From a virus: a stretch of 64,000 nt of DNA. Position 1 is the first letter of the stretch. Each line of letters starts with the position of its first letter. The position numbers were made by a program, and so were the translations under genes. Where the stretch lies: IMG/VR virus record IMGVR_UViG_3300028536_000015, positions 1 to 64,000 of that record; one strand, given 5' to 3'. Below are positions 1,224-30,055 of this stretch, piece by piece. The notes under the pieces were generated by a model. That model ran no database searches. It was not told the DNA's origin and was given only the letters and a program-made list of their open reading frames with translations.

Positions 1224-1233
1224 GGATCATCCT

Positions 1234-2683: not shown

Positions 2684-2686
2684 TAA

Positions 2687-2947: not shown

Positions 2948-2954
2948 TGTTAGG

Positions 2955-4306: not shown

Positions 4307-4309
4307 GTT

Positions 4310-4687: not shown

Positions 4688-4688
4688 A

Positions 4689-5048
4689 TTATTTCCCCAA
4701 CGGTCTTGGGTACCCTGACCCGTGCGGTACCGGCGAGAAATTGAGACTGGTCCGATTGCCGCCAGTAAGGACGGCCGCGAGCACAAAAGCCCCGTTCACG
4801 CGCCCAAGATCACGGTCCAGCTTCATCACGCAGAGGGCGTCGAGTGCTGCGTTTGCAATCGGCAATGAAATGATGATCCAAAACCCGGTCAATGAGCTGA
4901 TGCCGTTCACAAGAGCCTGCGGAGTCGAGACGCTGATACCGGGGAAGACTTGGCTGGTGTCCCATGTAGCACCGTTCCAAAACGTGCCTACCGTCGAATC
5001 TGCTTGCGCGGCTGCAGCGTTCGCGAAGATGCAGAAATAATCGATCAC
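4689..5048 (-). CDS. Small virion-associated protein
   Basis: This 119-residue protein has a Trp-rich segment (FWNGATW near residue 23), a hydrophobic stretch around residues 55-70 and a basic C-terminus. It overlaps the lectin-like gene by four bases. It is not recognised, and a tail or decoration role is inferred only from the operon. Confidence 0.5.
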   Translation of the reverse strand: MIDYFCIFANAAAAQADSTVGTFWNGATWDTSQVFPGISVSTPQALVNGISSLTGFWIIISLPIANAALDALCVMKLDRDLGRVNGAFVLAAVLTGGNRTSLNFSPVPHGSGYPRPLGK

Positions 5049-6043: not shown

Positions 6044-6044
6044 A

Positions 6045-6389
6045 TCACCAGCCTTCTCCCTGAATGACCTTGAAAGTCAGGGTTCCGGCAGTGAAGGTCG
6101 TGCTTGATATTCTTAATGCCGCCAGAGGGTATACAGACCCAATAGAAACCCCAGCATCAAAATTAGCACTGGAATAGTGCGTCGCAGATGAACCCGCGCT
6201 AGACCCAAATGATAGCCATGTCGGAGAAGTAGATAGCTGCACATCATCTAGCGTGTATTGAACCGTAAAGTCAGCCGCTACCGCCGTGCTGACAATCACC
6301 GTAGCCGTAATAGGCTTCCCGCCTCTCCAGTTCAGGTTAACAATCGGAGAAGTTCCAGCAGAAGACAGCGTTACGGTGGTATACGGCAT
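6045..6389 (-). CDS. Small beta-rich virion protein, paralogue of 6863-7207
   Basis: This 114-residue protein shares its layout with the product at 6863-7207: a YTLDD/FTLDD strand in the middle, then Trp, a Ser-Ser cluster, an aligned Tyr-x-Leu-x-x-Leu-Arg-x-Ser, and a final Gly-Thr-Leu/Ile-Thr-x-Lys-x-x-Gln. The two are probably an old duplication giving related decoration proteins. The start ATG overlaps the stop of the preceding gene by one base. Confidence 0.6.
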   Translation of the reverse strand: MPYTTVTLSSAGTSPIVNLNWRGGKPITATVIVSTAVAADFTVQYTLDDVQLSTSPTWLSFGSSAGSSATHYSSANFDAGVSIGSVYPLAALRISSTTFTAGTLTFKVIQGEGW

Positions 6390-6637
6390 TAATGATGGAA
6401 CCCCTTAAGCGTGTGCGCCAATCCCGCCATCTTGCGAACCCTGGCGCTGCCGGAATGCGACGCCTGAGACATCTTCTTTGCCGGTATCTTCTCTCCCTCA
6501 GGGACATGCAACGCTCTGTGCAAGGCGCCTGGGTGCTTAATCGCTCCGGCAATCCAATGCGTGCCGCCCCCGGAGGCCTTCTCTACGCGTCCCCGTTCGT
6601 GCTCACGTGGCTCGGCGCGAAAGGGGATTTGGTGCAA
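6389..6637 (-). CDS. Conserved phage protein with WIAGAIKxPGALHRAL motif
   Basis: This 82-residue protein contains from residue 27 the conserved core Trp-Ile-Ala-Gly-Ala-Ile-Lys-x-Pro-Gly-Ala-Leu-His-Arg-Ala-Leu, then Gly-Glu-Lys-Ile-Pro-Ala-Lys-Lys and a basic helix ending LAHTLKG. This is a small family in structural regions of alphaproteobacterial phages. No start codon lies between the upstream stop at 6583 and the core, so the gene must start at 6637 inside the previous gene (55-base overlap) or arise by a frameshift from it. Confidence 0.65.
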   Translation of the reverse strand: MHQIPFRAEPREHERGRVEKASGGGTHWIAGAIKHPGALHRALHVPEGEKIPAKKMSQASHSGSARVRKMAGLAHTLKGFHH

Positions 6638-6849
6638 TCGGCACCACCGCCTCCTGCCTTGCCAATCCGACCGCCACGGGCGCGCTTATCAAGGCGACCA
6701 TGGCCCTTCTTGCCATGAACCTTGCCGCCGTCCTTCTTTTCTTCAGCTTCCGATACGATCTTGTTCGGGCCGTCACCAGAGTAGTTCTTGCCACCCTTGA
6801 TGCCGCCGCTGACCTTGCCGCCGCCGGCTTTCTTATGACGATTAGCCAT
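6583..6849 (-). CDS. Lys/Gly-rich basic phage protein
   Basis: This 88-residue protein is very basic and glycine-rich: an N-terminal HKKAGGGKV stretch, 'GPNKIVSEAEEKKDGGKV' in the middle and 'RLDKRARGGRIGKAGGGGA' towards the end. Such basic, repetitive proteins accompany the WIAGAIK protein in related phage operons. A nucleic-acid or virion interior role is possible but not shown. It overlaps the downstream gene by 55 bases. Confidence 0.6.
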   Translation of the reverse strand: MANRHKKAGGGKVSGGIKGGKNYSGDGPNKIVSEAEEKKDGGKVHGKKGHGRLDKRARGGRIGKAGGGGADCTKSPFAPSHVSTNGDA

Positions 6850-6862
6850 GGTCTATATCTCC

Positions 6863-7207
6863 TTAAGCAGTAACCGACTGAAGGGCTTTGAGAGTGATCG
6901 TGCCAGATACTGCCACAGTCGATCCGGCAAGAGATAGGCGCAGTCCACCGAGAGGAGAAAGTACGGTGTAGATAACGCCACCGCCCGTGTCCATGGTAGT
7001 CGAATTAAGAGCCGAACTCAGGTTCGCCCAAGATACTGTCGGAGACGGAGTAACCGTTGGGTCATCCAAGGTAAATTGCACGAACCCCTGCGATCCAACT
7101 GCGCCAGAACTTGCCGTGACCTGGATCGTGGTAGTCTTGAATACCGGGTTAAGGATGATCGCCCCAGAAAAACTGGAAGTGGCGAGAGTAGTTACTTGTG
7201 CGCCCAT
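6863..7207 (-). CDS. Small beta-rich virion protein, paralogue of 6045-6389
   Basis: This 114-residue protein is equal in length and motif order to the product at 6045-6389: FTLDD near residue 46, Trp-Ala-Asn-Leu-Ser-Ser, PLGGLRLS and a closing GTITLKALQ. It is likely a decoration or tail protein that arose by duplication. It is preceded by GGAAAAC as a weak ribosome site. Confidence 0.6.
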   Translation of the reverse strand: MGAQVTTLATSSFSGAIILNPVFKTTTIQVTASSGAVGSQGFVQFTLDDPTVTPSPTVSWANLSSALNSTTMDTGGGVIYTVLSPLGGLRLSLAGSTVAVSGTITLKALQSVTA

Positions 7208-10649: not shown

Positions 10650-11715
10650 AGTAGCCTTCTTCCTTCATCTCATTAAGGCGCATCAGGTTCCGGGCGTACT
10701 CTTGTGGAGAGATGCCTGAAATCGCCGCTGCTTCCTGCTGCTTGATGCTCAGCTTGATCTTCGAGGAACTGGGCTTGCCGCTATTGGTCGGAGCATCCCT
10801 GGATACTGGTGCTGACACTAGCGTTCTCCTTGCGGTCTGACGGCGGGAGACGGGCTCGCTCTCCTCCTCGTCATCTTCATCGATCTCTTCCTCAGTCTCT
10901 GAGTAGCCAAGGCGATCTTCCAAGTACTGAAAATACTTCTTCGACCCAGGAGTAAATCCCTTATCTTCCGCTTCCACATGGGCACCTTGAAGCCTCATAT
11001 TTTTGCGTTGATCGGTCCAGGCGTCTGGATGAGTTTTCAGCCATTCCTTCTGGCTTGGCAGCAAGGCTGAATTAGCGTCAATCTGTTGTTCCACGCTAAG
11101 ACGCTGCGCAGGAGGAGGATTGCGCTTTAGTTCCTCAGCCTTGGCGACAGCATTGGCTTTTCGTTGCTCAAGGATATTCTTGCCATCCTCAAGCTGGATG
11201 ATCTTGGCCTCAGCCCTGGCAATACGCTTCTGGGCATCCGTGGCGGCCCTATGATCACCATTTGTGAGGGCGCCCTCAAGATCGCGCTGTGCCCCTTCGG
11301 ACTCGCTCTCAGCCGCGCCCATGGCGGTCAGGACTGATTGATACTCCGCTTCTTCGGCGCGCGTGAGATAACCACTCGACTCGCGCTGGGCTTCCTGGAG
11401 ACGGGTCTGGGCTTCGGCCTGCTGCCTCTGGGTCTCGATCTGAACCTTGCGGCCTTCTTCGATCGCAGCCCGCATATCCTCAAGTTGCTTCTTGAGATCG
11501 CTGGTTTCGGCGACACGAGCTTCCTCTTCCGCCTTCTTATGACGGCGATACTCGCGAGCGGCTTCTTTCTTGGACTCTTTTTGAGCGTCCGTATCCGTAG
11601 CAAGTTCCGCAAAAGAGTCCGCAGGATTACTCTCTTCGGTAACTACGGGATCATAGTCGATCTCCACCTCAACATCCTGAGGCTCTTTGTCTCTCGGAGG
11701 CTTAATGCGGGGCAT
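10639..11715 (-). CDS. Capsid scaffolding-like coiled-coil protein
   Basis: This 358-residue protein is highly charged, with an acidic N-terminus, a long heptad-rich Glu/Ala/Gln/Arg coiled coil (about 55-210) and an acidic linker EEEIDEDDEEE. Its basic C-terminal helix, KQQEAAAISGISPQEYARN, is followed by LNEMKEEGYYDN. This design, with a coiled-coil body and a conserved C-terminal helix that could dock on the shell, is what internal scaffolds have. It lies between portal and capsid genes, the usual place for a scaffold. Confidence 0.7.
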   Translation of the reverse strand: MPRIKPPRDKEPQDVEVEIDYDPVVTEESNPADSFAELATDTDAQKESKKEAAREYRRHKKAEEEARVAETSDLKKQLEDMRAAIEEGRKVQIETQRQQAEAQTRLQEAQRESSGYLTRAEEAEYQSVLTAMGAAESESEGAQRDLEGALTNGDHRAATDAQKRIARAEAKIIQLEDGKNILEQRKANAVAKAEELKRNPPPAQRLSVEQQIDANSALLPSQKEWLKTHPDAWTDQRKNMRLQGAHVEAEDKGFTPGSKKYFQYLEDRLGYSETEEEIDEDDEEESEPVSRRQTARRTLVSAPVSRDAPTNSGKPSSSKIKLSIKQQEAAAISGISPQEYARNLMRLNEMKEEGYYDN

Positions 11716-12134
11716 TAGTAAACCATCTCCGGTCTGGGAATGATCAGTTTGACGCTGGTATCGACCAGCATTCTACAGGGGCGCTCACCGACTTTAAGCT
11801 GCCATCCATCCCCTGGACGGAAGACAACCCAATCGCCAATCTGGGCGCGCTGCTCGCCGAACTCCATGTCAGCGGTACTCACAAAAGCAGCGGGACCGCA
11901 TTTCAGGACCAATCCAACCTTGCCCTGATAGTCATCTTCCTTGCGGGTATTGTCCGTCAGAATGATGCCGCCCTTGGTCTTTTCGGGACGCTTCCAGATA
12001 CCTACGAGTATCTGATTATACATCACGTCAACTTCAGAGATGTCACCGACTTCATTGAATATCTGAAATTTATCTTCCTCATCGGGGTGATAAGGAGGAG
12101 GAGCGGCGGCGACCCAAGCTCTAACTTTCCCCAT
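11715..12134 (-). CDS. GroES-like (Cpn10) co-chaperonin
   Basis: This 139-residue protein carries the Cpn10 beta-barrel signature: 'RPEKTKGGIILTDNTRKEDDYQG' (about 49-71), a mobile-loop-like segment, then 'KVGLVLKCGP', 'IGDWVVFRPGDGW' and a closing 'CRMLVDTSVKLII'. Phage GroES homologues such as T4 gp31 cap host GroEL to fold the capsid protein. Placement between portal and scaffold genes supports such a role. The 30-residue N-terminal extension is not typical of host GroES. Confidence 0.75.
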   Translation of the reverse strand: MGKVRAWVAAAPPPYHPDEEDKFQIFNEVGDISEVDVMYNQILVGIWKRPEKTKGGIILTDNTRKEDDYQGKVGLVLKCGPAAFVSTADMEFGEQRAQIGDWVVFRPGDGWQLKVGERPCRMLVDTSVKLIIPRPEMVY

Positions 12135-15640: not shown

Positions 15641-17245
15641 TTAGCAAGGATATAAAACTGGTAGTCTTCTTCGGTATTTTAGCAATTCTTCCTCTTCGTA
15701 CTCCGTCTCCTCCTTACGGAGCACAAATCCCATGTCGCGTAAATACCTTAGCGCCTGGGTAGTTGAATCAACCAAGTCATCGTGAGGTGCCTTTGGAAAC
15801 GTAGCACACTGATCGATTACTTTGGTGGCCCAGTCCACATCTGGCGCATAGACCATTCCTTCCGAGAAGATGTGCACAATACTATGGGCGCGAGCGACTT
15901 TATCTCCCTTGCGGGTGGGATTGATTAGCTCGACACCGAAGTTCCCAGAGAAGCCCACGATCTTTCTGATTTCCTGTGCTACCGAAATACCGCTGGCTTT
16001 GGCCTCGATGAGTAGCTTATCGACCGGATATCTTGGTTCGCCAAGGTCTATCTTCCGACTATCCCTAGTGCAGCAGTCTATAACACGTTGAACCAGTTCA
16101 GGAAACCCAAGGCGCTCTTCCCAGGCATAAAGCAGGATGACTCTGGGATTTCCGTACTGATCGCGGAAAACGCCCCAAATCGTCAGGGCTGAAGGATCGT
16201 TCTCTTCTTTTTCGGTATAGGCGCTGTCCAACGAGGCAATAATGAACTCGCAACGAGGGTATTCACCGCTTTCCCAGACTTTCCACCAATCCTGCTTGAT
16301 GATGGCGCCGCCGCGCGGTGTCGGGATTTGCTGGTACTGACCGGCCCACGCATAGGGTCCTTTTGCGTGCTCTAGAGCATCAACGCTCTCTTTAGAGAAC
16401 CTCTCTGGCCACGCCAACTCGCCGTCTTGAGTTCTGGGGTCTTCCCAGATGATCTCCTCGCCTTCGTGATTTGTACCAAGAACGGTAACACAGTGTCTGG
16501 TCTCATCATACCGCATAGGTATCATAAGATGGGTATAACCTAGCTCCCTTGAGATCGCGACACCAGACACATCTTCCGCATGAAGTCTCTGTTGAATAAC
16601 AACAATCGCGCTTTCCTGGGGATTATTCAGGCGGTCCGGGACGACTTCCGTGAACCACATATTGGTTGTGGCGCGAACGGCCTCCGACTCCATCAGCATG
16701 GTATTATTGGCATCATCGATGATGAACCTGTCACCACGCTCACCGACGCCGATACCACCGACCGACGTAGCCAACTTCCATCCGGTTTTATCGTTGGCGA
16801 ATTTTACTTTCGTAAATTGGTCGTTGGAGATGCCAAATCGAGACCCCCATAGGCGCTGGTATCGATCGCTCATGACAATATTTCTGCATCGCATATTGTC
16901 TCGTTCTGTCAAGTGGTTAGAATAAGATGCGCAGACGTATCGATACCATGGTTTATTCTGCGGTCCCCACTCATAGGCGGGCCACATGACATCCGTTAAC
17001 AGGGATTTTGTGAACCCAGGCGAGACGTTTATCAGGAGCCGCTTTATATCTCCACGCGTAACCGCTTCCAAATGCTCAGCAATTGCCGAAATAGCCCAGC
17101 CTTTTACGAAGGGGATCGCAGGTTCGACCACAGGCCAAACATACTCCACGAATGAAATGAGGCTTTTTTCGTATACCTCTGCCTCAAGTTTTTCACGAAG
17201 CTTAGCGGTGGCCTTTGCGATGTTGGCAATTCTTGATTGGTCCAT
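15641..17245 (-). CDS. terL: Terminase large subunit
   Basis: This 534-residue DNA-packaging motor has an N-terminal ATPase with a non-classical phosphate loop 'INVSPGFTKSLLTDV' (about 73-87), and Walker B 'DRFIIDDANN' (about 172). The C-terminal RNase H-like nuclease shows acidic residues in 'IIASLDSAYTEKEENDPSAL', 'DKLLIEAKASG' and 'PHDDLVDSTTQAL'. Gly-x-x-(T/S)-K-S in place of GxxGxGKS is typical of this branch of phage terminases. It is the first gene of the leftward structural operon, while its small partner lies 27 kb away. Confidence 0.9.
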   Translation of the reverse strand: MDQSRIANIAKATAKLREKLEAEVYEKSLISFVEYVWPVVEPAIPFVKGWAISAIAEHLEAVTRGDIKRLLINVSPGFTKSLLTDVMWPAYEWGPQNKPWYRYVCASYSNHLTERDNMRCRNIVMSDRYQRLWGSRFGISNDQFTKVKFANDKTGWKLATSVGGIGVGERGDRFIIDDANNTMLMESEAVRATTNMWFTEVVPDRLNNPQESAIVVIQQRLHAEDVSGVAISRELGYTHLMIPMRYDETRHCVTVLGTNHEGEEIIWEDPRTQDGELAWPERFSKESVDALEHAKGPYAWAGQYQQIPTPRGGAIIKQDWWKVWESGEYPRCEFIIASLDSAYTEKEENDPSALTIWGVFRDQYGNPRVILLYAWEERLGFPELVQRVIDCCTRDSRKIDLGEPRYPVDKLLIEAKASGISVAQEIRKIVGFSGNFGVELINPTRKGDKVARAHSIVHIFSEGMVYAPDVDWATKVIDQCATFPKAPHDDLVDSTTQALRYLRDMGFVLRKEETEYEEEELLKYRRRLPVLYPC

Positions 17246-17706: not shown

Positions 17707-18258
17707 ATGACGCCGATTGATGAATACGATCAGCCCGTTCTCGCAAAGAGAGCAAATTTTCTACAAACCAAGGGACTATCTCTGGTTCCGATCAATGAGA
17801 ATATTCGGGATTATTCCAGATGGCTCAATGATCCTGAGGTCGTTAAGTTCTCAGAACTTCGCCATCGTTCGCATACCCCTGAAAGCTGCATAGAGTACAT
17901 CAAGGGCTTTGATCAGATCGATAACTGCATGTGGGCGATCTATGCCATCGGTCCTGACATGCATATCGGGAATATCACCATCCACATCGATCCCAACAAC
18001 AACGTCGCTCAGATGGGCATGCTGATCGGTGAAAAGTGGGCATGGGGACGCAAATATGGCCGGGAAGCATGGGGGGCCGTAATGACCTGGGCGAAGACTC
18101 AGAAAATCCGCCAAGTCGAGGCTGGTTGTATGCTCAATAACGTTGGCATGCGCCGCATCATGATACTTTGCGAAATGTTGCATTGCGCAACCGTTGAAGG
18201 TCATTTCTTGCTTGATGGAGCCATTATCTCCAAAGCCATCCACCGGAAGATATTCTGA
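17707..18258 (+). CDS. GNAT N-acetyltransferase, possible PseH role
   Basis: This 183-residue GNAT enzyme has an N-terminal 'SLVPINENIRDYSRWLNDPEVV' (about 25-46), the usual strand-turn of the RimJ/PseH branch. A central 'MHIGNITIHIDPNNNVAQMGMLIGEK' follows, with the acetyl-CoA site around 'KYGREAWGAVMTWA'. In pseudaminic acid synthesis PseH acetylates the 4-amino group of the UDP-sugar made by PseB and PseC, both of which are present downstream. The assignment to that step is contextual. It overlaps the next gene by one base (TGATG). Confidence 0.75.
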   Translation: MTPIDEYDQPVLAKRANFLQTKGLSLVPINENIRDYSRWLNDPEVVKFSELRHRSHTPESCIEYIKGFDQIDNCMWAIYAIGPDMHIGNITIHIDPNNNVAQMGMLIGEKWAWGRKYGREAWGAVMTWAKTQKIRQVEAGCMLNNVGMRRIMILCEMLHCATVEGHFLLDGAIISKAIHRKIF

Positions 18259-19070
18259 TGCATAAAACGAAAGAGTTTTGGGACCAACAGGCTGAGAAGC
18301 ATGGCGCTGATCAAGCCGCGACAGCGCCAGACCATTTCTACCGCGATAACATCGAGATCAAGCGCATCGTTGAAGTCATGACGATCATGGAGCCGGAAGC
18401 TATCTTGGATATAGGCTGCGGTAATGGCTATTCCACGATCGAAATCGCCAAGAAGTTTCCGACATCGATGGTGATCGGGGTCGATACTAGCGAAAAGATG
18501 CTCGAAGAGGCCCGAGAGGCCGCCAAGGGCATCAATAACATCACCTTTTTCCAGGGTGATGTCCTTACTCTATCCTGGCATCCGAAATTGCAGCATCAAA
18601 AGTTCGATGTGGTGCTCAGTGTGCGCTGTTTGATCAATCTGGACAACTGGGAAGAGCAAAAACTCGCCATTTTGCAGATGCGAAAGCTTCTGACGCCGGA
18701 CGGTTCTCTGATTTTAGTCGAAAACACCAAAGAGGGACTGGATAAGCTCAATTTGCTCCGTCAGATCGTGGATTTGCCCCCGATCGAACAGCGATGGCAC
18801 AATAATTACATCCCGGAAGACAAATTGAAGCAGTTTGTCGCTGAAAACAACCGAAAACTGTTCCAACTCATGGCAATGGAGAACATCGGGAACCTCTACT
18901 ACATCATTTCGAGGGTGGTTTATGCCAAACTTGCGCAAATGGAGGGCAAAGAGCCATCCTATGATCACCCACTCAATGAAATAGCATCTCAACTGCCTAG
19001 CCTGGGCGATCATTACTCATGTTCACCGAACTATATGATGATCTTAGAGAACATCCCGGACGAAAGTTAA
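18258..19070 (+). CDS. SAM-dependent methyltransferase (class I)
   Basis: This 270-residue methyltransferase has motif I 'ILDIGCGNGYSTI' (about 50-62), an acidic 'GVDTSEKMLEEA' motif II and 'FDVVLSVRCLINLDNW' (motif IV region). It resembles small-molecule and sugar methyltransferases and not DNA enzymes. In this cassette it could methylate a nucleotide sugar or the finished glycan. The substrate cannot be read from the sequence. Confidence 0.8.
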   Translation: MHKTKEFWDQQAEKHGADQAATAPDHFYRDNIEIKRIVEVMTIMEPEAILDIGCGNGYSTIEIAKKFPTSMVIGVDTSEKMLEEAREAAKGINNITFFQGDVLTLSWHPKLQHQKFDVVLSVRCLINLDNWEEQKLAILQMRKLLTPDGSLILVENTKEGLDKLNLLRQIVDLPPIEQRWHNNYIPEDKLKQFVAENNRKLFQLMAMENIGNLYYIISRVVYAKLAQMEGKEPSYDHPLNEIASQLPSLGDHYSCSPNYMMILENIPDES

Positions 19071-19091
19071 TCAGCAACAAAGGAAAGAGAC

Positions 19092-19367
19092 ATGACACAG
19101 AAATTGGACGCGAAATTCTCTGGCGTAATTTTTAAGATCAAGGATGGATCGATTGTCAGCGACGACGAGTATGTGGTATTCTTGGCAAAGGATACCGCAT
19201 TCTATGAGACACTTCCGACCTATCGCCGTAAGTGCATTGAGCTTGGTGCCGATCAAGAACAGATCGCGGCAGTCGATCGCATGATCGCAAGAGCGACTGA
19301 TTGGCGGCATGCTAATCCCGATCGCTGCAAAGTTCCTGATGCTAAGGGTGAAAAGCTGGTTGGTTAA
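19092..19367 (+). CDS. Hypothetical cassette protein
   Basis: This 91-residue soluble protein begins MTQKLDAKFSGVIFKIKDGS and contains 'EYVVFLAKDTAFYETLPTYRR'. The order, a short beta hairpin followed by 'Lys-Asp' and two helices, recurs in uncharacterised small phage proteins. It is preceded by GGAAAGAG as a ribosome site and lies between the two methyltransferase genes. Confidence 0.6.
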   Translation: MTQKLDAKFSGVIFKIKDGSIVSDDEYVVFLAKDTAFYETLPTYRRKCIELGADQEQIAAVDRMIARATDWRHANPDRCKVPDAKGEKLVG

Positions 19368-19392
19368 TTAATCCCGCATCAAGAAGAAAGTA

Positions 19393-20037
19393 ATGGGCAA
19401 GCAGGAAGATATCTTTCTGGAGAGCGAGGGGGACGCGTGGTTTGAGCGAAATATATACAAAGTTCGTGAGGATGTCCACGCAGACCCCGTTATCCAGCTC
19501 GTTCTCAGGCATTTTAATACCGGCGAGCCATTGGGGGTCCTAGAGATAGGATGCTCCAATGGCTGGCGCTTGAGCGAACTCCATAAAATCTACCATTGGT
19601 TCTGTTACGGCATCGATCCTTCAGCCGAGGCCATCAAAAACGGCCTGATGAGGTTCGGCAACCTGGAGAAACTGAACCTTACCCGAGGTTCAGCGACGGC
19701 TCATCCTTATCATTCCGCAACCATGGATATGATCATCTATGGTTTTTGCCTCTATGTGTGCGATCCCGAAGAGCTGTTCGAGATCGTTACGCAGGCCGAC
19801 AATGCTCTAAAAGACGGCGGCTCAATCATCATCCATGATTTTGACGCAGAGTATCCTCATTCTGTCCCCAATCATCATGTAGAAGGATTGATATCTTACA
19901 AGATGGATTGGAGCAAGCTTTGGCTATGTCATCCGGCATATAGATTGGTCGAGAAGGTATCATTTGCAGACGGAACCGCTGTCTGGCTTCTTAGGAAATC
20001 TCAGGGAGATGCGTTTCCGTGCTCATCGGCATCTTAG
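19393..20037 (+). CDS. Second SAM-dependent methyltransferase
   Basis: This 214-residue protein has motif I 'GVLEIGCSNGWRLSEL' (about 51-66), 'CYGIDPSAEAIKNG' and a long 'HSATMDMIIYGFCLYVCDPEEL' segment. This is the architecture of class I methyltransferases found in flagellin and polysaccharide modification loci. It overlaps the start of the oxidoreductase by 19 bases, indicating coupling. The sugar or glycan acceptor is unknown. Confidence 0.78.
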   Translation: MGKQEDIFLESEGDAWFERNIYKVREDVHADPVIQLVLRHFNTGEPLGVLEIGCSNGWRLSELHKIYHWFCYGIDPSAEAIKNGLMRFGNLEKLNLTRGSATAHPYHSATMDMIIYGFCLYVCDPEELFEIVTQADNALKDGGSIIIHDFDAEYPHSVPNHHVEGLISYKMDWSKLWLCHPAYRLVEKVSFADGTAVWLLRKSQGDAFPCSSAS

Positions 20038-20888
20038 GGTTTGGTTCGATTGGAATGCGTCATGGGCGCAATCTCATGGATATCGGGCATCAGGTTGTTT
20101 TCCATGATCCTGGCGTTCTCGGCAGCATAGATCGTGATGTTCTAATCCGAGAGGCGGATGCGGTCATTATCTGCACGCCAACGATACGGCATGCTCTTGA
20201 TCTCTGCGATGTCTTGCAGGCAAGGAAGCATGTCCTGGTTGAGAAACCCATTGGTTATGACTGTCCTCCATATATCTCGGGCCTCATCATGGGCGCGCGG
20301 TCAGCAGCGAGAGATTTGGTAGTCGCTACTGGGTTCATGTGTCGGTTTCATCCTGAAGTTCAGAGAGCAAGGAGCATGATAGATTATGGCTACTTCAACA
20401 AAATCATCGATGTGCAATTCGATGTTTTACAAAAAAATAGCAAACCTGAATACTTGCGTGATGGTGTTATCCGAAATTGGGCTTCGCACGAACTCGACTT
20501 GGCTAGATATCTCTTGGGAAATCTCTGTCTAGAAAAAGCTGATGTTGGCGTTTCTCTCGATCACCAAGACATTTCTATGGTAGCTGATCTCTATAGCATA
20601 GAGCATGACTGTCCTGTGATTATACGAGCCGATTACATTACCAGTCCAGAGTTTAGAAGATTTTCTATTCAAGGCAATAAAGCTGTAGCCGTCGCGTTTA
20701 ATCTAGTGCGAGGAGAGGCCGTCTGGGACCAAACCTACGTGGATGAACTCAAGGCATTCATCAATGCGATCGATGGTAAGGACCCTGGACCGCTGGCAGA
20801 TGGTGCAGATGGTGTCGCGGCTCTTCAACTCGTCATGGACATAAGAGAGAAGGTTGGATTGGAAGATGAGCAAAAGAAGAACATTTAG
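20019..20888 (+). CDS. Gfo/Idh/MocA-family oxidoreductase
   Basis: This 289-residue NAD(P)-dependent sugar dehydrogenase starts at GTG, inside the previous gene. The N-terminal Rossmann fold shows 'IGILGFGSIGMRHGRNL' (GxGxxG), and 'VLVEKPIGYD' near residue 75 is the conserved EKP motif whose Lys takes part in hydride transfer. The C-terminal half is a short alpha/beta domain with 'WASHELDLARYLLG'. Enzymes of this family oxidise or reduce nucleotide-linked sugars, including steps in nonulosonic acid pathways. Confidence 0.85.
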   Translation: MLIGILGFGSIGMRHGRNLMDIGHQVVFHDPGVLGSIDRDVLIREADAVIICTPTIRHALDLCDVLQARKHVLVEKPIGYDCPPYISGLIMGARSAARDLVVATGFMCRFHPEVQRARSMIDYGYFNKIIDVQFDVLQKNSKPEYLRDGVIRNWASHELDLARYLLGNLCLEKADVGVSLDHQDISMVADLYSIEHDCPVIIRADYITSPEFRRFSIQGNKAVAVAFNLVRGEAVWDQTYVDELKAFINAIDGKDPGPLADGADGVAALQLVMDIREKVGLEDEQKKNI

Positions 20889-21072
20889 ATGCGAGTTATG
20901 TGAAATGAATTATCCGGTAGAACCGGGATGGACTGACGACATGGCAAAGGAGGAGTTTCGTCGTCTTTATCCAGGGCAGCCATTCAAGAATGTCGCCAAA
21001 ATCTGTGATGACTGCCATAAAATGGTCGAGATATGGCGCCAGGAGAATGAGGGAAAGAGGACGCTTCAATGA
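20866..21072 (+). CDS. Small zinc-ribbon protein
   Basis: This 68-residue protein starts at ATG 20866 inside the end of the oxidoreductase gene. It has two CxxC knuckles, 'FRCELCEMNYP' and 'KICDDCHKM', about 40 residues apart, as in zinc ribbons. Such proteins are frequent in phage accessory regions. Role unknown. Confidence 0.6.
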   Translation: MSKRRTFRCELCEMNYPVEPGWTDDMAKEEFRRLYPGQPFKNVAKICDDCHKMVEIWRQENEGKRTLQ

Positions 21073-21081
21073 GACTTCCTC

Positions 21082-21591
21082 ATGAAGCCAAAACACAAGA
21101 TATCTCAGACTACGCTCAAGCATCATCTAAAATATGATCCTGAAAGTGGAATATTCTACTGGAGACATTCCACCTATCGAACTGACCTAATTGGCAATCA
21201 AGCTGGGTACATTGATCGACGTGGGTATATCCGCATTAAGATTGGATCGATTACATATCTAGCTCATAGACTAGCCTACATCTACATGACCGGAACTAAT
21301 CCTCCAGAGCTTATCGACCATAAGGATAACAACCGACAGAATAATCGATGGATAAACATCCGTTCAGCTACACATGGGCAAAATGTCTCAAACTCCTCAG
21401 GATGGAAAAAGAGAAAAATAAAACTACCCAAAGGAGTGTACAAACATTCCATGTCAGCAGGATATTTTGCCATGATCGTAGTAGACAGAAAACGTCACTA
21501 TCTTGGCTCCTTCAAAACAATAGAAGAAGCGAAAGCTACCTACATTTCCGCCGCCATAAAATTCAAAGGCGAATTCGCGAGGGCTTCATGA
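21082..21591 (+). CDS. HNH homing endonuclease with AP2-like domain
   Basis: This 169-residue enzyme has an N-terminal helix-strand 'LKHHLKYDPESGIFYW', the HNH core 'PELIDHKDNNRQNNRWINIR' (about 73-92) with following 'GQNVSNSSG', and an AP2-like C-terminus 'YFAMIVVDRKRHYLGSF'. It is clearly related to the second half of the endonuclease at 7353-8159. The TGA overlaps the ATG of the cytidylyltransferase fusion, so it slipped into the sugar operon without breaking the downstream frame. Confidence 0.85.
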   Translation: MKPKHKISQTTLKHHLKYDPESGIFYWRHSTYRTDLIGNQAGYIDRRGYIRIKIGSITYLAHRLAYIYMTGTNPPELIDHKDNNRQNNRWINIRSATHGQNVSNSSGWKKRKIKLPKGVYKHSMSAGYFAMIVVDRKRHYLGSFKTIEEAKATYISAAIKFKGEFARAS

Positions 21592-23576
21592 CTAAAACCG
21601 TTGCCATATGCCAAGCTAGGATGTCCAGTACCCGCTTACCGGGAAAGGTTATGAAAGACCTTGCGGGAAGACCTGTAATAGATTGGGTGGTAGAGGCCGC
21701 CAAACACGCTCCCGGCGTTGACGAGGTCATAGTTGCCACCTCCATAGAACCTGCGGATGACGTGATTGCGGAGTGGGCTACACATAAGGGAGTAGCATTA
21801 TACCGAGGATCGTTAACTGATGTCATGAGCCGATTTGTAGGAGCGGCCAATCAAACCAACGCCGATATTATCGTTCGCTTGACCTGTGACTGTCCTCTGC
21901 TTGACCCGAATGTAATTGGAGAAGTGATCCAACTCAGGAAAATAAAAAATGCAGACTACGCCTCATGTACTGATCCTCCCTCGTATAGTGACGGTCTCGA
22001 TGTCGAGGTATTCACGCGGGGAACTCTGGAAAGCGCCAATCGGGAAGCAACGCGAGGAACTGACCGAGATACTGTTACTCGCTTTATGGTTCGCAATCGT
22101 CATAGGTTTCATGCTGTTAATTTGGTCTGCTCGCTTCCTAATCTCGCTCGTGAACGGTGGGTCCTCGATAGTCCAGAGGATTATGAATTCATCCTGGAGA
22201 TCGCAAAGAGGCTTGGCGGCGGCAGAAATCCACCGTCATACCTTCAGATTTTGTCGATCCTTGATAAGGAGCCATCACTCCGGGCGATAAACAACATGCA
22301 CTCTCGCAACGAGCGCTTCTATGAGGCGCTTGCTGCGGAAGGCTCTAGCAAACGATCATATCATAATTCCAAGATGATGCTAGCTAAGGCTGAGGCTTTG
22401 ATCCCCTTGGGAACGCAGACCTTCAGCAAGAGCAAGCTGATGTTCCCGGAAGGAGCAGCGCCACTGTTCGTAACCCATGGAGATGGGGCCTATGTCTTTG
22501 ACGTGGATGGCAATGATTATGTTGATTGCGTCGGAGGGCTTCTGCCTAATATCCTTGGCTACAGAGACCCCGATGTGGATAGCGCTATCCGCGATCAGCT
22601 ATCTAGCGGGATTAGCTTTAGCCTTGCGACCCCTTTAGAAGAGAAACTAGCGGCGCTGCTCCATAAGCATATTCCATCCGCTGAGATGGTGAAATTCGGC
22701 AAGAACGGCAGCGATGTCACGACTGCCGCTGTCCGTCTTGCGCGCCATGTCACCGGACGAGATATGGTCATGGTAGGTGGCTATCACGGCTGGCACGACT
22801 GGAGTATGGCGGTTAGTGAGCGCCATAATGGCATCCCCTGGGATGTCCAAAAGCTTTCCGATAGTCTGCACGCTGATAAAGAGCGGTTTAGCTCATACGC
22901 CGCCATGATCATTGAGCCTGAGTTCTATTCCAAGGAAGAGCTACAAGGCATCCAAAAACTATCCCTTGAATATGGGTTCCTCTTGATCTTTGACGAGATC
23001 ATCACTGGGTTCCGTTGCGGGTTGGGGGGTTTGCAGAAAGTCCATGGGGTGGCGCCTGATTTGTCTTGTTTTGGCAAATCCATGGCCAACGGCATGCCGA
23101 TATCTGCCTTGGTCGGACTTGAGAAATACATGAAACACATGCCTGAGATTGCTTATTCAGGCACGTTCTTTGGCGAAACACTATCGATCGCAGCGGCGAT
23201 TGCGACCATCGAAAAGTTGGAACGCGAGAGGGTCCCGGTTTGGTTACTGTCCCTTGGTATCTCTGTCTATGCCAATGTTACAACCCTGATCCAGAAGGCC
23301 AGATTGACTGAGTATATCTCATTGTATGGCCCTATGGAGCTAAATCGCATCAAGTTCAAGAACAATGGCGTCCAGAGCCTGTTCATTCAGGAGATGGCCA
23401 AGAACGGCGTGCTCATCATCGGTAGCCACAACCTCAGCTTTGCTCATGGTAAAACCGAGCTGGATATCATCACCAGAGCCTGGGAAAAGACACTGGACAA
23501 GCTTGCTGAAGCGGCGAGTTCCAATATCCTGGATCATCTCGATGGCGGTCTCGTCATGGCGAAAGGCGTCAGATGA
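21588..23576 (+). CDS. SpsF-like cytidylyltransferase fused to class III aminotransferase
   Basis: This 662-residue fusion starts at ATG 21588; longer readings overlap the HNH gene in another frame. Residues 1-240 form an SpsF/PseF-type nucleotidyltransferase: 'AICQARMSSTRLPGKVMKDLAGRP' (6-29) with the CTP-binding Arg/Lys, and later the 'RLTCDCPLLDP' metal-binding Asp. Residues 260-662 are a glutamate-1-semialdehyde aminotransferase-like, fold type I PLP enzyme. It shows 'LIFDEIITGFRCGLGGLQ' and the Schiff-base lysine in 'LSCFGKSMANGMP'. Fusing CMP-sugar activation with an amino-transfer step points to one sugar product handled in series. Confidence 0.85.
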   Translation: MTKTVAICQARMSSTRLPGKVMKDLAGRPVIDWVVEAAKHAPGVDEVIVATSIEPADDVIAEWATHKGVALYRGSLTDVMSRFVGAANQTNADIIVRLTCDCPLLDPNVIGEVIQLRKIKNADYASCTDPPSYSDGLDVEVFTRGTLESANREATRGTDRDTVTRFMVRNRHRFHAVNLVCSLPNLARERWVLDSPEDYEFILEIAKRLGGGRNPPSYLQILSILDKEPSLRAINNMHSRNERFYEALAAEGSSKRSYHNSKMMLAKAEALIPLGTQTFSKSKLMFPEGAAPLFVTHGDGAYVFDVDGNDYVDCVGGLLPNILGYRDPDVDSAIRDQLSSGISFSLATPLEEKLAALLHKHIPSAEMVKFGKNGSDVTTAAVRLARHVTGRDMVMVGGYHGWHDWSMAVSERHNGIPWDVQKLSDSLHADKERFSSYAAMIIEPEFYSKEELQGIQKLSLEYGFLLIFDEIITGFRCGLGGLQKVHGVAPDLSCFGKSMANGMPISALVGLEKYMKHMPEIAYSGTFFGETLSIAAAIATIEKLERERVPVWLLSLGISVYANVTTLIQKARLTEYISLYGPMELNRIKFKNNGVQSLFIQEMAKNGVLIIGSHNLSFAHGKTELDIITRAWEKTLDKLAEAASSNILDHLDGGLVMAKGVR

Positions 23577-23779
23577 GCACTGTTATCATGAAATTAACGG
23601 TGCCTTCTGATTGGGATGGCCAACAGTTGAAGCCAGCCGGCACTATTGGTTTAAGACAAATCTGTCTAAACCGAACTAACTGGATGGCCCATGATCAGCT
23701 AAGTTCGATCATCATACCTGATGGTGGCCAAATTATCATCAGACGCGATGGTCATACGATCTATATTGAGCGACCATGA
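23573..23779 (+). CDS. Hypothetical small cassette protein
   Basis: This 68-residue, probably beta-rich protein begins MSTVIMKLTVPSDWDG and ends 'IIIRRDGHTIYIERP'. It overlaps the fusion gene and pseB-like gene by four bases each (ATGA junctions), so it belongs to the operon. No family is recognised. Confidence 0.6.
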   Translation: MSTVIMKLTVPSDWDGQQLKPAGTIGLRQICLNRTNWMAHDQLSSIIIPDGGQIIIRRDGHTIYIERP

Positions 23780-24696
23780 AAGTCCTTATCACCGGAGGCT
23801 CAGGTAGCTGGGCGCAGGCTTGTGTTAAACGCCTCCTAGATGACAAGTTGGCTGACCGCATCGTTATATATTCTCGTGGTGAGCACCTTCAAGAGGAGAT
23901 GGCGCGACGCTTTAATCATGATGATCGCCTCAGGTTCGTCATAGGGGATGTTCGTGACCGTGATCGACTTGAGATGGCGATGTATGGGATTGACACAGTT
24001 CTCCATGCTGCGGCCCTTAAGATCGTTCCCACGGCTGAGTATAATCCTTACGAATGCGTGCAGACCAACATCGGAGGAGCTGAAAATGTTGCTAGAGCTA
24101 GTCTTGCTGCTGGCGTACAGCGCGTTATCGCTCTTTCTACTGATAAATCAGTCTCTCCTCTTAACCTCTATGGTGCGACAAAGCTTGCTGCTGAGAAGAT
24201 TTTCGTGGCAGCAAATAATATGTCTGCTGGTCGATGTAGCTATTCTGTCTGCCGCTATGGGAATGTCGTTAATAGTCGCGGGTCTGTGGTTCCGCTATTT
24301 AAACGACTTGCCAATGCTGGAGAACGTCTACCCATCACTGATCCACAGATGACCCGGTTCTGGATGACGCTGGATCAAGCTGTTGATCTCGTGCTGTCGT
24401 CTCTAGAGATGATGAAGGGTCGGGAAATCTTCATTCCAAAGATACCATCTGTGCGAATTGTTGATCTTGCCGCCGCTATTTCGCCAGAGTGTGGGACTAA
24501 GATTACCGGCATCAGACCGGGGGAGAAACTCCACGAAGTCTTGATGACACAAGAGGAAGCCAGAGGTGCTCTGGAGGCCTGGGATCGCTTTATCGTAAAT
24601 TCTGACGGCGTATCCAACATCAAAGAACCAAGGACCTATTCTAGTGATAGTAATGGCGATTATCTTAGTTTGGAAGAAATTAAGAGATATCTATAA
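23776..24696 (+). CDS. pseB: UDP-GlcNAc 4,6-dehydratase, PseB-like
   Basis: This 306-residue short-chain dehydrogenase begins 'KVLITGGSGSWAQACVKRLL', a nucleotide-binding motif with Ala in place of the last Gly. The decisive segment is 'IALSTDKSVSPLNLYGATKLAAEKIF' (about 118-143), which holds Thr-Asp-Lys and Tyr-x3-Lys as in PseB. It is followed by 'YGNVVNSRGSVVPLF' and a C-terminal 'GIRPGEKLHEVL'. PseB removes water from UDP-GlcNAc and inverts C5, the committed step to pseudaminic acid. PseC- and PseI-like genes follow. Confidence 0.88.
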   Translation: MKVLITGGSGSWAQACVKRLLDDKLADRIVIYSRGEHLQEEMARRFNHDDRLRFVIGDVRDRDRLEMAMYGIDTVLHAAALKIVPTAEYNPYECVQTNIGGAENVARASLAAGVQRVIALSTDKSVSPLNLYGATKLAAEKIFVAANNMSAGRCSYSVCRYGNVVNSRGSVVPLFKRLANAGERLPITDPQMTRFWMTLDQAVDLVLSSLEMMKGREIFIPKIPSVRIVDLAAAISPECGTKITGIRPGEKLHEVLMTQEEARGALEAWDRFIVNSDGVSNIKEPRTYSSDSNGDYLSLEEIKRYL

Positions 24697-24702
24697 GAGG
24701 GG

Positions 24703-25791
24703 ATGATGGTGAAACTATTCACGACCATAGGAAACGATGAAGAAGAAGCTGTCCTGAGGGTTCTACGCAGAAAGCAGCTCTCTGGATATATAGCCGGGAA
24801 GGATACCTCTGGTGTAGAAGTCAATCGACTAGAGACTAACTGGGCTGAGTTCTTCGGCGTCAATTACGCGATTGCGTGCAATTCAGCCACGTCTGGGTTG
24901 CTCGCGGCCTGCATGGCAATCGGCGTGGGTCCTGGCGATGAAGTTATCGTTCCCTTTTTGACCATGTCTGCCACAGCCTGCGCTCCGAATGTTCTTGGGG
25001 CGCAGATCGTGCTTGCGGACGTTGATGAGAACCTATGTATCGATGTCAACCATGTCGGTAAGCTCATCAATGAGAACACCAAGGCTGTCATCGCGACCAA
25101 CCTATTCGGCCATCCAGCGAAACTAGCACAGTTGCGCGGCATGTGCGACAGCGTCAACGTCTTCCTGATTGAAGACAATGCGCAGGCCATAGGCGCGAAA
25201 GAAGGAACCCGCTACACCGGGACCATAGGTCATATCGGCGTGTTCTCGCTGAACTACCATAAGCAAATCCAGGCTGGTGAAGGTGGCGTGTGCGTCACAG
25301 ATAATTATCTTTTGAACATGAAGCTGCGTGGCGCCATAAATCATGGCGAGCACATGAAGCTCGATTTCCCAGGGCTGAACCTGCGCATGACCGAGATCAC
25401 AGCCGCTATCGCCATAGAGCAACTTAAGAAATTACCAGATATTCTGGAAGCTAAAGAAGAAGTGGCACGCGCCATCATTGGTCATATGAAACGATGTAGT
25501 TACATCAATCCACCTCCGACCCGCGATAATTGCACGAACGTATATTACGCCCTGCCGTTTCAGGTTATTGAGGGCTTCAGCCTCATAAGCGTTATTGCTC
25601 ATTTTCAAAGTAAATCAGGTCTTAATCTCTCGCTGGGTTATAGCAATCTCATGAAACTTAGGATCGGTGATAAATGGGTAAAGGACAAATGCCATAAATA
25701 CCGAGATGTAAGTAGGTTAGTCCTTCTGGAGATGTACAGCGATGACATCACGATGGATAGCCTGAAGCATATGGAGAAGGTATTCACATGA
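24703..25791 (+). CDS. pseC: DegT/DnrJ/EryC1 aminotransferase, PseC-like
   Basis: This 362-residue PLP-dependent sugar aminotransferase has 'YAIACNSATSGLLAACMA' (about 52-69) and 'VIVPFLTMSATA' as the start of the cofactor site, then 'FLIEDNAQAIGA' with the ring-binding Asp. The Schiff-base lysine region is 'VFSLNYHKQIQAGEGG'. In PseC the enzyme adds an amino group to C4 of the PseB product, and its place directly after the PseB-like gene fits. A second ATG one codon downstream is an alternative start. Confidence 0.87.
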   Translation: MMVKLFTTIGNDEEEAVLRVLRRKQLSGYIAGKDTSGVEVNRLETNWAEFFGVNYAIACNSATSGLLAACMAIGVGPGDEVIVPFLTMSATACAPNVLGAQIVLADVDENLCIDVNHVGKLINENTKAVIATNLFGHPAKLAQLRGMCDSVNVFLIEDNAQAIGAKEGTRYTGTIGHIGVFSLNYHKQIQAGEGGVCVTDNYLLNMKLRGAINHGEHMKLDFPGLNLRMTEITAAIAIEQLKKLPDILEAKEEVARAIIGHMKRCSYINPPPTRDNCTNVYYALPFQVIEGFSLISVIAHFQSKSGLNLSLGYSNLMKLRIGDKWVKDKCHKYRDVSRLVLLEMYSDDITMDSLKHMEKVFT

Positions 25792-26003
25792 CCGACGAGG
25801 AACTGTTAGATCAGATCACCAGAGTTCGCGCGCAGAATAACGTCAATTGGGTGGAACTCTTAAGGATCGCATTACGCGCTGATCCCAAGGCCACCAAGGA
25901 GGTTCTTGGCAAGGTTCTTATCATGGACCTCCAAGTGAGTAGGCTCACCAGAGCCCTGTCCGCGACAGACTGGAAGCCCAGGGACCTGGAGGACAAGAAA
26001 TGA
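25788..26003 (+). CDS. Small helical cassette protein
   Basis: This 71-residue protein is likely all-helical: 'NNVNWVELLRIALRADPKATKEVLGKVLIMD' spans about residues 17-47 and is followed by a basic end. It overlaps both neighbours by four bases, so it is translationally coupled between the PseC- and PseI-like enzymes. Similar small helical proteins occur near NeuB-family genes. Role unknown. Confidence 0.6.
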   Translation: MTDEELLDQITRVRAQNNVNWVELLRIALRADPKATKEVLGKVLIMDLQVSRLTRALSATDWKPRDLEDKK

Positions 26004-27043
26004 AAATAGGCTCACGGGAGATCGGACCGGATCATCCTCCTTATATCGTGGCCGAATTATCTGCTTCGCATCTAGGAGACATCAATAACGTATTCAGGCT
26101 GATCGATGAGGCGAGACATGCTGGCGCTGATGCCGTCAAGCTACAGGCCTACACACCAGATACGATTACGATGGATAGCAAGAATGCTGACTTTCTCATC
26201 AAGGAAGGTCCCTGGAAAGGACGATATCTCTTTGACCTTTACGCAGAAGCTCACGTGCCTTTTTCGTGGATGGAACGTATATTTGATTATGCTCGCAACG
26301 TTCGTTGCATCGAGATATTTGCATCTGTTTTCGACGAGAGCGCGGTTGGTCTCATGGAAGAACTTTATGCCCGTGCTTACAAGATTGCGAGCTTCGAGTT
26401 ATCTCATCTCCCTCTCATCAGGAACGTAGCGGAGACCAATAAGCCGATTATCTTGTCTACTGGGATGGGTTCCACCAAGGAAATCCTGGACGCCATGAAC
26501 GTCATCAACAAGTTCTCTCTCAAGCCTGATATCGCCCTGCTTCATTGTGTCAGCGCCTATCCGACACCTGCCAGTCAGGCCAACTTGCCGGCGCTAGGGC
26601 CTTTGAGCGAACTCCTGGGAGGGAAACATGTGGTTGGTCTGTCTGACCATACTCTTGGTATTGCTGTGGCTGTATCTGCTGTTTGCTACGGTGCGACCAT
26701 CATTGAAAAGCATCTATGTCTTAGTAGGAGCGCAGGTGGCCCTGACGCTGATTTTAGTCTGGAACCTGATGAGTTCACAGCCCTGGTAAAATCATGCCGC
26801 GAGGCATGGGAGGCTACTCGGCCGTCGAAGTCTCCGGATCAGAAGGCAAATCTTCAATGGCGTCGGTCGATTTATGTAACGAATCCAATTTCCGAAGGCG
26901 AGCCTCTGTCCAAGGAGAATATCCGAGTGATACGGCCAGCGAACGGGCTTTTGCCGTCATTTTACCCGTCCGTTTTGGGGCGAAAGGCAAAGGTGGCCCT
27001 GCAACCTGGGACTCCATTATCTCTCGATCACTTACTCTCATAA
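26000..27043 (+). CDS. pseI: Pseudaminic acid synthase, PseI/NeuB family
   Basis: This 347-residue enzyme condenses phosphoenolpyruvate with a 6-carbon amino sugar to give a 9-carbon nonulosonic acid. The TIM barrel shows 'YIVAELSASHLGDINN' (about 14-29), 'GADAVKLQAYTPDTITMDS', 'FLIKEGPWKGRYLFDLYAEA' and 'AYKIASFELSHLPLI', the last two matching PseI better than sialic acid synthases. The C-terminal SAF antifreeze-like domain begins 'RRSIYVTNPISEGEPLS' and ends 'GTPLSLDHLLS'. The last 230 bases are overlapped on the other strand by an HTH gene. Confidence 0.9.
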   Translation: MKIGSREIGPDHPPYIVAELSASHLGDINNVFRLIDEARHAGADAVKLQAYTPDTITMDSKNADFLIKEGPWKGRYLFDLYAEAHVPFSWMERIFDYARNVRCIEIFASVFDESAVGLMEELYARAYKIASFELSHLPLIRNVAETNKPIILSTGMGSTKEILDAMNVINKFSLKPDIALLHCVSAYPTPASQANLPALGPLSELLGGKHVVGLSDHTLGIAVAVSAVCYGATIIEKHLCLSRSAGGPDADFSLEPDEFTALVKSCREAWEATRPSKSPDQKANLQWRRSIYVTNPISEGEPLSKENIRVIRPANGLLPSFYPSVLGRKAKVALQPGTPLSLDHLLS

Positions 27044-29361: not shown

Positions 29362-29621
29362 TGTCTTCCCTCCAGTTCATCCATGATTTGCATGGCGCGG
29401 AATGTCTCTTCGTATTCCTTGCAGAGACCTTCTACCCTATCCCGACTTACCTTTTGTTCCCGGTCCCGGTATAGTATTTCTTCCCTCATAGCTTCGAATT
29501 CTACGTAGTTATGTCTCGCTATGTTTTCTTTCTTCATACGCCATGCACTGAACATCATAATCAAACCAACCGACATCATAAAGATGAACACGGTACAAAA
29601 GAGCACAATCAAAACGCTCAT
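29358..29621 (-). CDS. Small membrane protein with shared C-terminal motif
   Basis: This 87-residue protein has a transmembrane helix at residues 2-24 (IVLFCTVFIFMMSVGLIMMF) and a charged helix. It ends with YEETFRAMQIMDELEGRQ, the motif shared by five proteins in this block. The final codons also supply the GGAGGGAAG ribosome site of the downstream gene. Confidence 0.65.
   Translation of the reverse strand: MSVLIVLFCTVFIFMMSVGLIMMFSAWRMKKENIARHNYVEFEAMREEILYRDREQKVSRDRVEGLCKEYEETFRAMQIMDELEGRQ
29373..29414 (-). repeat. C-terminal motif copy 2
   Basis: This 42-base unit encodes YEETFRAMQIMDEL at the end of the protein at 29358-29621. On the plus strand it reads close to copy 4 (TTCxTCCATGATTT, then AT-G-CGCG). 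Confidence 0.65.
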
Positions 29622-30055
29622 AGCAGGTTCAAGCTCCTCTTGATCGCCATGATATCAGCGCCGAGCTTGCCTTTCGCCAGCTCTTTCACGCGCTCGATAG
29701 AACTGACGATCGTTGAACGGTCACGGCCTCCTAAGCGGGAAGCAATCTGAGGTATCGACAGGCTGGTATGCTGACTGGCAATGTAGGCAATAACATGACG
29801 GGCGCAGACGATCTTCACACCACGACGCGCTGAGATAATATCCAGCATGGACACTTTATAATATTTGCACACTTTCCGAAAGATGTCCTTGAACGTGATG
29901 GACTTCGGATCGATCAGGAAATCATAGTCGTCTTCTTCGATCTGGATCGGTGGGGGCGCAGGCTCTTCCTGAGGGACCAGCTTGGCTGCATCGGCAATCC
30001 TCCCGCGCCGCTCCTTGTGTTCTCTCTGAAGCTTTTGCAGGTACGTCTCGGTCAT
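29618..30055 (-). CDS. DnaA domain IV-like DNA-binding protein
   Basis: The C-terminal half of this 145-residue protein matches DnaA domain IV: 'ITFKDIFRKVCKYYKVSMLDIISARRG' (about 53-79), 'VCARHVIAYIASQHTSLSIPQIASRLGGRDRSTIVSSIERV' by position (about 82-122), including the GGRDRST signature that contacts DnaA boxes. There is no AAA+ ATPase domain. It could bind host oriC-like boxes to redirect or block host initiation, or recognise phage boxes. Confidence 0.8.
   Translation of the reverse strand: MTETYLQKLQREHKERRGRIADAAKLVPQEEPAPPPIQIEEDDYDFLIDPKSITFKDIFRKVCKYYKVSMLDIISARRGVKIVCARHVIAYIASQHTSLSIPQIASRLGGRDRSTIVSSIERVKELAKGKLGADIMAIKRSLNLL

Follow-up and report, generated by a model that had tools for sequence, protein, structure and literature searches.

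A conserved pseudaminic-acid-type sugar cassette and a candidate nonulosonic acid transferase in a phage lineage

The 64,000-nucleotide stretch analysed here (the window) comes from a 73,364-bp IMG/VR virus record, IMGVR_UViG_3300028536_000015, and encodes a compact cassette of sugar genes (17707–27043) beside the gene for the terminase large subunit (TerL). The phage belongs to a family from soil. We propose that this phage makes a pseudaminic-type nonulosonic acid (NulO) activated with cytidine monophosphate (CMP), and that a transferase of its own, here called GTc, attaches the sugar to Ser/Thr residues of virion proteins; we give this reading a probability of about 0.52. Virion O-glycosylation is the simplest account that covers all the observations. 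It builds on gene content, conservation, selection on testable genes, gene order and a predicted fold, and from these we infer the chemistry, donor, acceptor and purpose of the modification, together with the source of the enzyme PseG. The wider proposal, that virions throughout the lineage, and in several other phage groups, bear a coat of largely self-made sialic-acid-like sugar attached by a new phage branch of GT42/Maf enzymes, is tentative, and we would not quite give it even odds.

Cassette layout and enzyme identities

The cassette lies on the plus strand between TerL and the next minus-strand genes. It is tightly packed, with overlaps of 1–23 bp or gaps of <26 bp between neighbours, and corresponds to the coupled operon described in an initial annotation of this region. 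Its genes are listed below in order, after TerL. Family names reflect profile scores, and conservation is given among eight long relatives (genomes of 73–77 kb).

15641–17245, minus: terminase large subunit TerL, the neighbour used as a scan query (phrog_38, E 8e-83)
17707–18258, plus: GNAT acetyltransferase, kin of stand-alone GNATs in bacterial Pse-type clusters, not PseH-type (PF13302, E 4e-16; 8/8)
18258–19070, plus: S-adenosylmethionine (SAM)-dependent methyltransferase MT1, in part of the lineage (PF13847, E 3e-21; 4/8)
19092–19367, plus: open reading frame (ORF) of 91 amino acids (aa), no Pfam, NCBIfam or PHROGs match
19393–20037, plus: SAM-dependent methyltransferase MT2, lineage core (PF13649, E 6e-11; 8/8)
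20019–20888, plus: Gfo/Idh/MocA-type dehydrogenase (Gfo), lineage core (PF01408, E 3e-7; 8/8)
20866–21072, plus: small CxxC ORF, read from the sequence, with a homologue in the nearest relative
21082–21591, plus: probable homing endonuclease of the HNH/AP2 type, inserted within the operon (PF13392, E 6e-11; phrog_99, E 1e-54)
21588–23576, plus: fusion of a cytidylyltransferase and a class-III aminotransferase of the glutamate-1-semialdehyde aminomutase (GSA) type, lineage core (PF02348, E 6e-28; PF00202, E 3.4e-41; 8/8)
23573–23779, plus: small ORF, read from the sequence
23776–24696, plus: PseB-like UDP-N-acetylglucosamine (UDP-GlcNAc) 4,6-dehydratase (TIGR03589, 400.4 bits; FlaA1, E 3e-97; 8/8)
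24703–25791, plus: PseC-like DegT/DnrJ/EryC1/StrS aminotransferase (PF01041, E 9e-64; TIGR03588, 162 bits, below cut-off; 8/8)
25788–26003, plus: small conserved ORF (homologues in 6/8)
26000–27043, plus: PseI pseudaminic acid synthase (TIGR03586, 384 bits, over cut-off; Campylobacter jejuni PseI, E 5e-70; 8/8)

The enzyme families named in the initial annotation largely hold. PseI exceeds its NCBIfam cut-off of 340 bits, and its best solved relative is the C. jejuni enzyme. PseB scores just under its cut-off of 407.75 bits; its best solved match is Helicobacter pylori FlaA1, and the STDK and YxxxK motifs are present. Since the best NCBIfam match of the aminotransferase is far under its cut-off of 423 bits, we name this enzyme only ‘PseC-like’; it matches many solved sugar aminotransferases without clear preference. 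Pfam likewise bears out the two methyltransferases and the dehydrogenase, the latter with an NCBIfam UDP-GlcNAc 3-dehydrogenase match 68 bits below its cut-off. The cytidylyltransferase, which by family is the putative source of the CMP sugar, had been recognised as well, but it is only the N-terminal part (best stretch residues 5–127) of a 662-aa protein whose aminotransferase half had been missed. An alignment of ten phages keeps both the QARMxSTRxPGK motif and the pyridoxal phosphate-lysine region FGKxMxNG of this fusion. The operon also holds the endonuclease and several small ORFs that had gone unlisted. The position of HNH/AP2 endonuclease genes in the cassette varies between phages (loci L033, L159 and L039), as expected of homing endonucleases, and one close relative carries a YspA/SLOG-like ORF, identified by eye, within its cassette (L145, 12177–12521).

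The acetyltransferase had been called PseH-like, a label that we reject. It shows no match to the PseH profile (TIGR03585) at E ≤ 0.1 and is kin to a different GNAT, with E values of 6e-19 to 2e-11 against stand-alone GNATs of bacterial clusters versus 0.38 at best against the PseH-type GNAT domain fused to bacterial PseG. The bacterial fused protein itself consists of PseG (236 bits, cut-off 154) and a weak PseH-type domain. Extra GNATs in some relatives are PseH-type. The initial annotation was correct that PseG is missing: TIGR03590 finds it in none of 23 viral records, this one included, and detects it in four of five bacterial genomes used as a positive control, so we also reject a PseG hidden in the phage. 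It was incorrect that PseG is the only gap. With no PseG, and a GNAT that is not PseH-type, the phage is without the activities of the bacterial PseG::PseH gene, and the complete PseB-C-H-G-I-F set is thus short of both PseH and PseG. Apart from the PseH-like label, a pseudaminic-acid-type pathway is well supported.

Conservation of the cassette in a phage lineage

Searching IMG/VR with only TerL as query, without regard to the cassette, returned 32 loci. Cassette genes adjoin TerL in all 21 contigs that have at least 1.5 kb upstream of it. Nine contigs extend at least 9.8 kb upstream; GNAT, MT2, Gfo, the fusion, PseB and PseC are found in 9/9 of these and PseI, by the same criterion, in 8/9. 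Scanning with the fusion as query brought up further phages with the same layout. Recurrence in dozens of related phages in an essentially constant order indicates that the cassette is not there by chance, and the 21 informative contigs lead us to reject a stray moron or an assembly chimera. These records are metagenomic and possibly incomplete, gene calls in the relatives are mechanical, and the number of homologues counted varies with the query patterns used in each scan.

The genes present in all eight long relatives are mainly those for packaging, capsid and tail, joined by GNAT, MT2, Gfo, the fusion, PseB, PseC, PseI and GTc. Much of the replication region is not so universal, and within the 27–60 kb region many genes have homologues in only one to four of the eight. 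Distances of cassette genes correlate with those of TerL (Mantel r of 0.57 for the fusion, 0.55 for PseC, 0.50 for Gfo and 0.30 for PseI; 0.70 for the portal protein as a yardstick). At least one phage seems to have swapped its PseI (L041, 26% identity). The testable genes are under purifying selection: the ratio of nonsynonymous to synonymous substitution rates (dN/dS) is 0.04–0.21 for PseB, Gfo, the fusion, GNAT and GTc where measurable, based on few pairs and none for MT2, PseC and PseI. The nearest cultured-phage terminase (MW202675, 46% identity) has no such cassette genes around it, and this PseI used as a query matches 3 of 50,697 cultured-phage records. Relatives also carry tailoring genes, recognised by eye as formyltransferase-like, PIG-L and ATP-grasp genes, that differ between phages.

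Further conserved genes, and a sugar-gene set in another virus group, were also observed. All eight long relatives encode a GroES-like co-chaperonin near the capsid genes (window 11715–12134) and a second GNAT-like acetyltransferase in the tail-gene region (L209:2548–3102; record 66047–66601, outside the window). In another virus group (L186–L208, records of ∼14–40 kb), many viruses combine a PseB-like enzyme with a cytidylyltransferase and an aminotransferase of the GSA type; a PseI match nearby is often lacking, and the pathway is possibly a different aminosugar one.

A candidate transferase among the structural genes

GTc, which lies outside the region that the initial annotation described, emerged when the genes shared by all eight relatives were examined for the final step of the pathway. 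It is flanked by two possible acceptors:

4310–4786, minus: conserved protein rich in Ser/Thr (25%), encoded ahead of GTc, a possible acceptor
3437–4306, minus: GTc, candidate CMP-NulO transferase with a GT42/Maf-like predicted fold, lineage core (AlphaFold2 (AF2) with Foldseek, VIA and context; 8/8)
2955–3437, minus: conserved all-beta protein rich in Ser/Thr (28%), encoded behind GTc, a possible acceptor (alignment)

The GTc sequence contains VAMIGTAPSSR near its start and FFTSSFAYMIAMAIKYGAAEIALFGIDM further along, both reminiscent of GT42 and Maf enzymes. In the AF2 model the core, residues ∼60–190, is mostly confident (mean predicted local distance difference test score of 74 for the whole chain). 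All six Foldseek matches of this model in the PDB at E ≤ 0.001 are GT42 sialyltransferases (1.7e-5 to 8.4e-4), CstII being the best. The VIA-align ranking places Maf first (Z 10.9), followed by CstI (10.3) and CstII (10.0; CstI/CstII range 10.3–9.8). Among predicted viral structures, the matches include a mimivirus DUF115 protein (E 1.3e-4). Seven residues (W84, H108, G185, E193, G212, Y230 and G272) are invariant or nearly so across 88 sequences and are at best putative counterparts of the CstII catalytic residues. Five GTc members gave no match to PF06002 or PF01973 at E ≤ 10, and a search of 190 Alphaproteobacteria for PF06002 found none, which is uninformative because the control was silent too. 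The rest of the phage showed no known glycosyltransferase among 15 Pfam families at E ≤ 1e-4. Its predicted GT42/Maf-like fold makes GTc a candidate CMP-NulO transferase, a finding new to this analysis.

The surroundings of GTc are consistent with such a role. The six most Ser/Thr-rich conserved genes of the window (25–31%, against a median of 11.5% for 50 genes) lie at 214–7207, around GTc. The all-beta product of 2955–3437 has only weak fold matches, to viral jelly-roll coats, and alignment shows a homologue of it next to GTc in a virus from outside the lineage (L319). With GTc as query, viral records yielded 79 loci, including 22 divergent records found by GTc alone. NeuB occurs in eight of these 22, and in five of the seven that are at least 20 kb long, versus the 3/50,697 cultured-phage records from the PseI query, a less sensitive method and therefore only a rough baseline. 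L323 and L327 share the order PseI, small Ser/Thr-rich protein (27–29%), GTc and terminase-like ORF, and L324, L325 and L326 are partly similar. The link between GTc and NulO genes is frequent, not general. Some virus records hold two GTc copies (L005, 14952–16267, in tandem; L333; and the records of L014, L016 and L022).

Bacterial relatives and host

The fusion also occurs in bacterial genome clusters with PseB, PseC, Gfo or an aldo-keto reductase (AKR), PseG::GNAT and PseI. Among Alphaproteobacteria, 27 of 385 sampled genomes have fusion matches, the best at 49–50% identity. A PseG-like gene, called by blastp to a reference PseG, adjoins the fusion in eight of ten alphaproteobacterial clusters (L221, L222, L223, L225, L227, L228, L229 and L230); in L224 a single gene separates the two, and in L226 the PseG-like gene sits some genes further along within the cluster. 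FlgK- and FlgL-like genes are seen by eye near the cluster in L221. Among 289 sampled alphaproteobacterial genomes, 38 have a PseG that scores above the cut-off.

The phage encodes a GcrA-like cell-cycle regulator (PF07750) and a DnaA C-terminal domain protein (PF08299, probably 29618–30055). As judged from these two families, its gene content suggests an alphaproteobacterial host. A host PseG probably fills the gap left by the missing phage enzyme.

Proposed mechanism and alternatives

By their families, PseB and the PseC-like enzyme would convert UDP-GlcNAc to a UDP-4-amino-6-deoxy sugar, which a host PseG, none being encoded by the phage, would free. PseI would condense the free sugar with phosphoenolpyruvate, and the cytidylyltransferase half of the fusion would yield the CMP sugar. 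The GSA-type aminotransferase, Gfo dehydrogenase, GNAT and methyltransferases may alter amino, acyl or methyl groups. In light of its fold and context, GTc would then transfer the NulO to the adjacent Ser/Thr-rich proteins of the particle. The methyltransferases and GNAT, together with the formyltransferase-like, PIG-L and ATP-grasp genes of relatives, may vary the sugar, as occurs on bacterial surfaces. The initial annotation had offered virion glycosylation as one of three uses, and it is newly supported here by co-inheritance with the virion module and the GT42/Maf-like fold.

Several observations weigh against virion glycosylation by GTc. With PseG missing, the pathway is incomplete without a host. 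GTc matches no relevant family in Pfam or PHROGs, and comparison with Maf sequences from two Alphaproteobacteria gave no significant similarity. Its fold is also close to MptE (Z 9.9) and thiamine pyrophosphokinase (Z 9.6, over fewer residues), and because these score nearly as high, the fold alone is no proof of a transferase. Of 32 virus records from beyond the lineage that bear NulO or aminosugar genes, only 6 have GTc. In a cultured Microcystis phage a GTc homologue directly precedes the terminase genes, and NeuB gave no match. (That homologue, PP496355.1 34781–35584, L342, carries the annotation ‘type 11 methyltransferase’, which is probably wrong.) Virion proteins are commonly rich in Ser/Thr, and the cassette and the structural genes lie on opposite strands.

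The main and serious rival is that the CMP-NulO is destined for the host. Host or phage transferases would place it, or a methylated or otherwise changed form of it, on flagellin, lipopolysaccharide or capsule, which would alter the surface and block superinfection or receptor-binding competitors; GTc would then act on a host protein or glycan. The missing PseG fits here, implying a cassette that slots into a pathway of the host, as do the bacterial kin: they are clusters of Pse type, and in one of them FlgK- and FlgL-like genes lie close by. Tailoring genes that differ between phages point the same way, and there is a precedent in Acinetobacter, where prophage-encoded enzymes modify the pseudaminic acid of the host (PMC12053666). 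However, the cassette is co-inherited with the virion genes and not with the variable part of the genome, and GTc sits among structural genes beside Ser/Thr-rich proteins. Stable lysogenic conversion is also not obvious, since a tyrosine integrase is found in 2 of 15 records and not in this one. On balance we regard modification of the host surface as unlikely, although it deserves serious attention.

We find it improbable that the product is something other than a pseudaminic-type NulO, such as another modified sugar or a NulO-like acid shaped by the GSA-type aminotransferase and the Gfo dehydrogenase. The absence of PseG and PseH-type genes, the low PseC-like score and a fusion aminotransferase with no assigned sugar substrate would be accommodated by such a product. 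Nevertheless, PseI is over its cut-off and nearest to the C. jejuni enzyme, PseB is nearest to FlaA1, and bacterial clusters with the same fusion hold the full PseB-C-G-I set. The third use in the initial annotation, DNA modification, gained no evidence. Phages do glycosylate DNA, and the cassette adjoins the terminase, but the families identified elsewhere in the phage include no recognisable gene for DNA-base hypermodification, and NulOs are not known to occur on DNA. We consider it very unlikely that the pathway feeds a modification of the phage DNA.

If virion glycosylation by GTc is correct, phages bear their own NulO glycosylation of the particle, a trait hitherto tied to bacterial flagella and capsules. 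This would account for the retention of a sugar operon of ∼9 kb with the same strictness as the capsid genes. It would also assign a function to a protein family that has no Pfam entry, and supply new types of transferase and donor enzyme. The missing PseG further predicts host dependence: these phages would be expected to rely on bacteria with pseudaminic-type sugar synthesis of their own.

Comparison with known systems

The bacterial fusion clusters of Alphaproteobacteria, Acidobacteria and Verrucomicrobia resemble the phage cassette in PseB, PseC-like enzyme, Gfo or AKR, and the fusion (38–50% identity), and often also have GNAT, formyltransferase, PIG-L and PseI genes as counterparts to the phage set. 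They differ in having a PseG-like gene, often fused to a GNAT, whereas the phage cassette has none. Maf enzymes O-glycosylate Ser/Thr residues of flagellin with NulOs, and the central domain of Maf resembles CstII (PMC11339370). GTc is like the Maf flagellin glycosyltransferases (PF01973) and the GT42 enzymes CstI and CstII (PF06002) in its predicted core fold, its GPS-like and GxD-like motifs and its Ser/Thr-rich neighbours. Unlike them, it has no Pfam match, is shorter than Maf and lies among phage structural genes.

Among phages, EpaA/EpaB and O-acetyltransferases act on host nonulosonic acids (PMC12053666, PMC6586298) and are likewise phage genes for pseudaminic-type sugars. These enzymes tailor a capsule sugar made by the host, whereas here nearly the whole pathway is a core phage trait. 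Beyond such host-capsule tailoring, we found no precedent for a phage NulO pathway or NulO virion glycosylation in the open-access PMC literature, where several of our queries were poorly specific. Donor synthesis in our lineage is largely phage-encoded and the candidate transferase is GT42/Maf-like, both in contrast to the donors and transferases of mycobacteriophages. The mycobacteriophage systems are nonetheless alike in that a phage-encoded transferase is proposed to glycosylate the particle, virion glycosylation having been suggested for their glycosyltransferases, e.g. in Maravista (PMC11256854).

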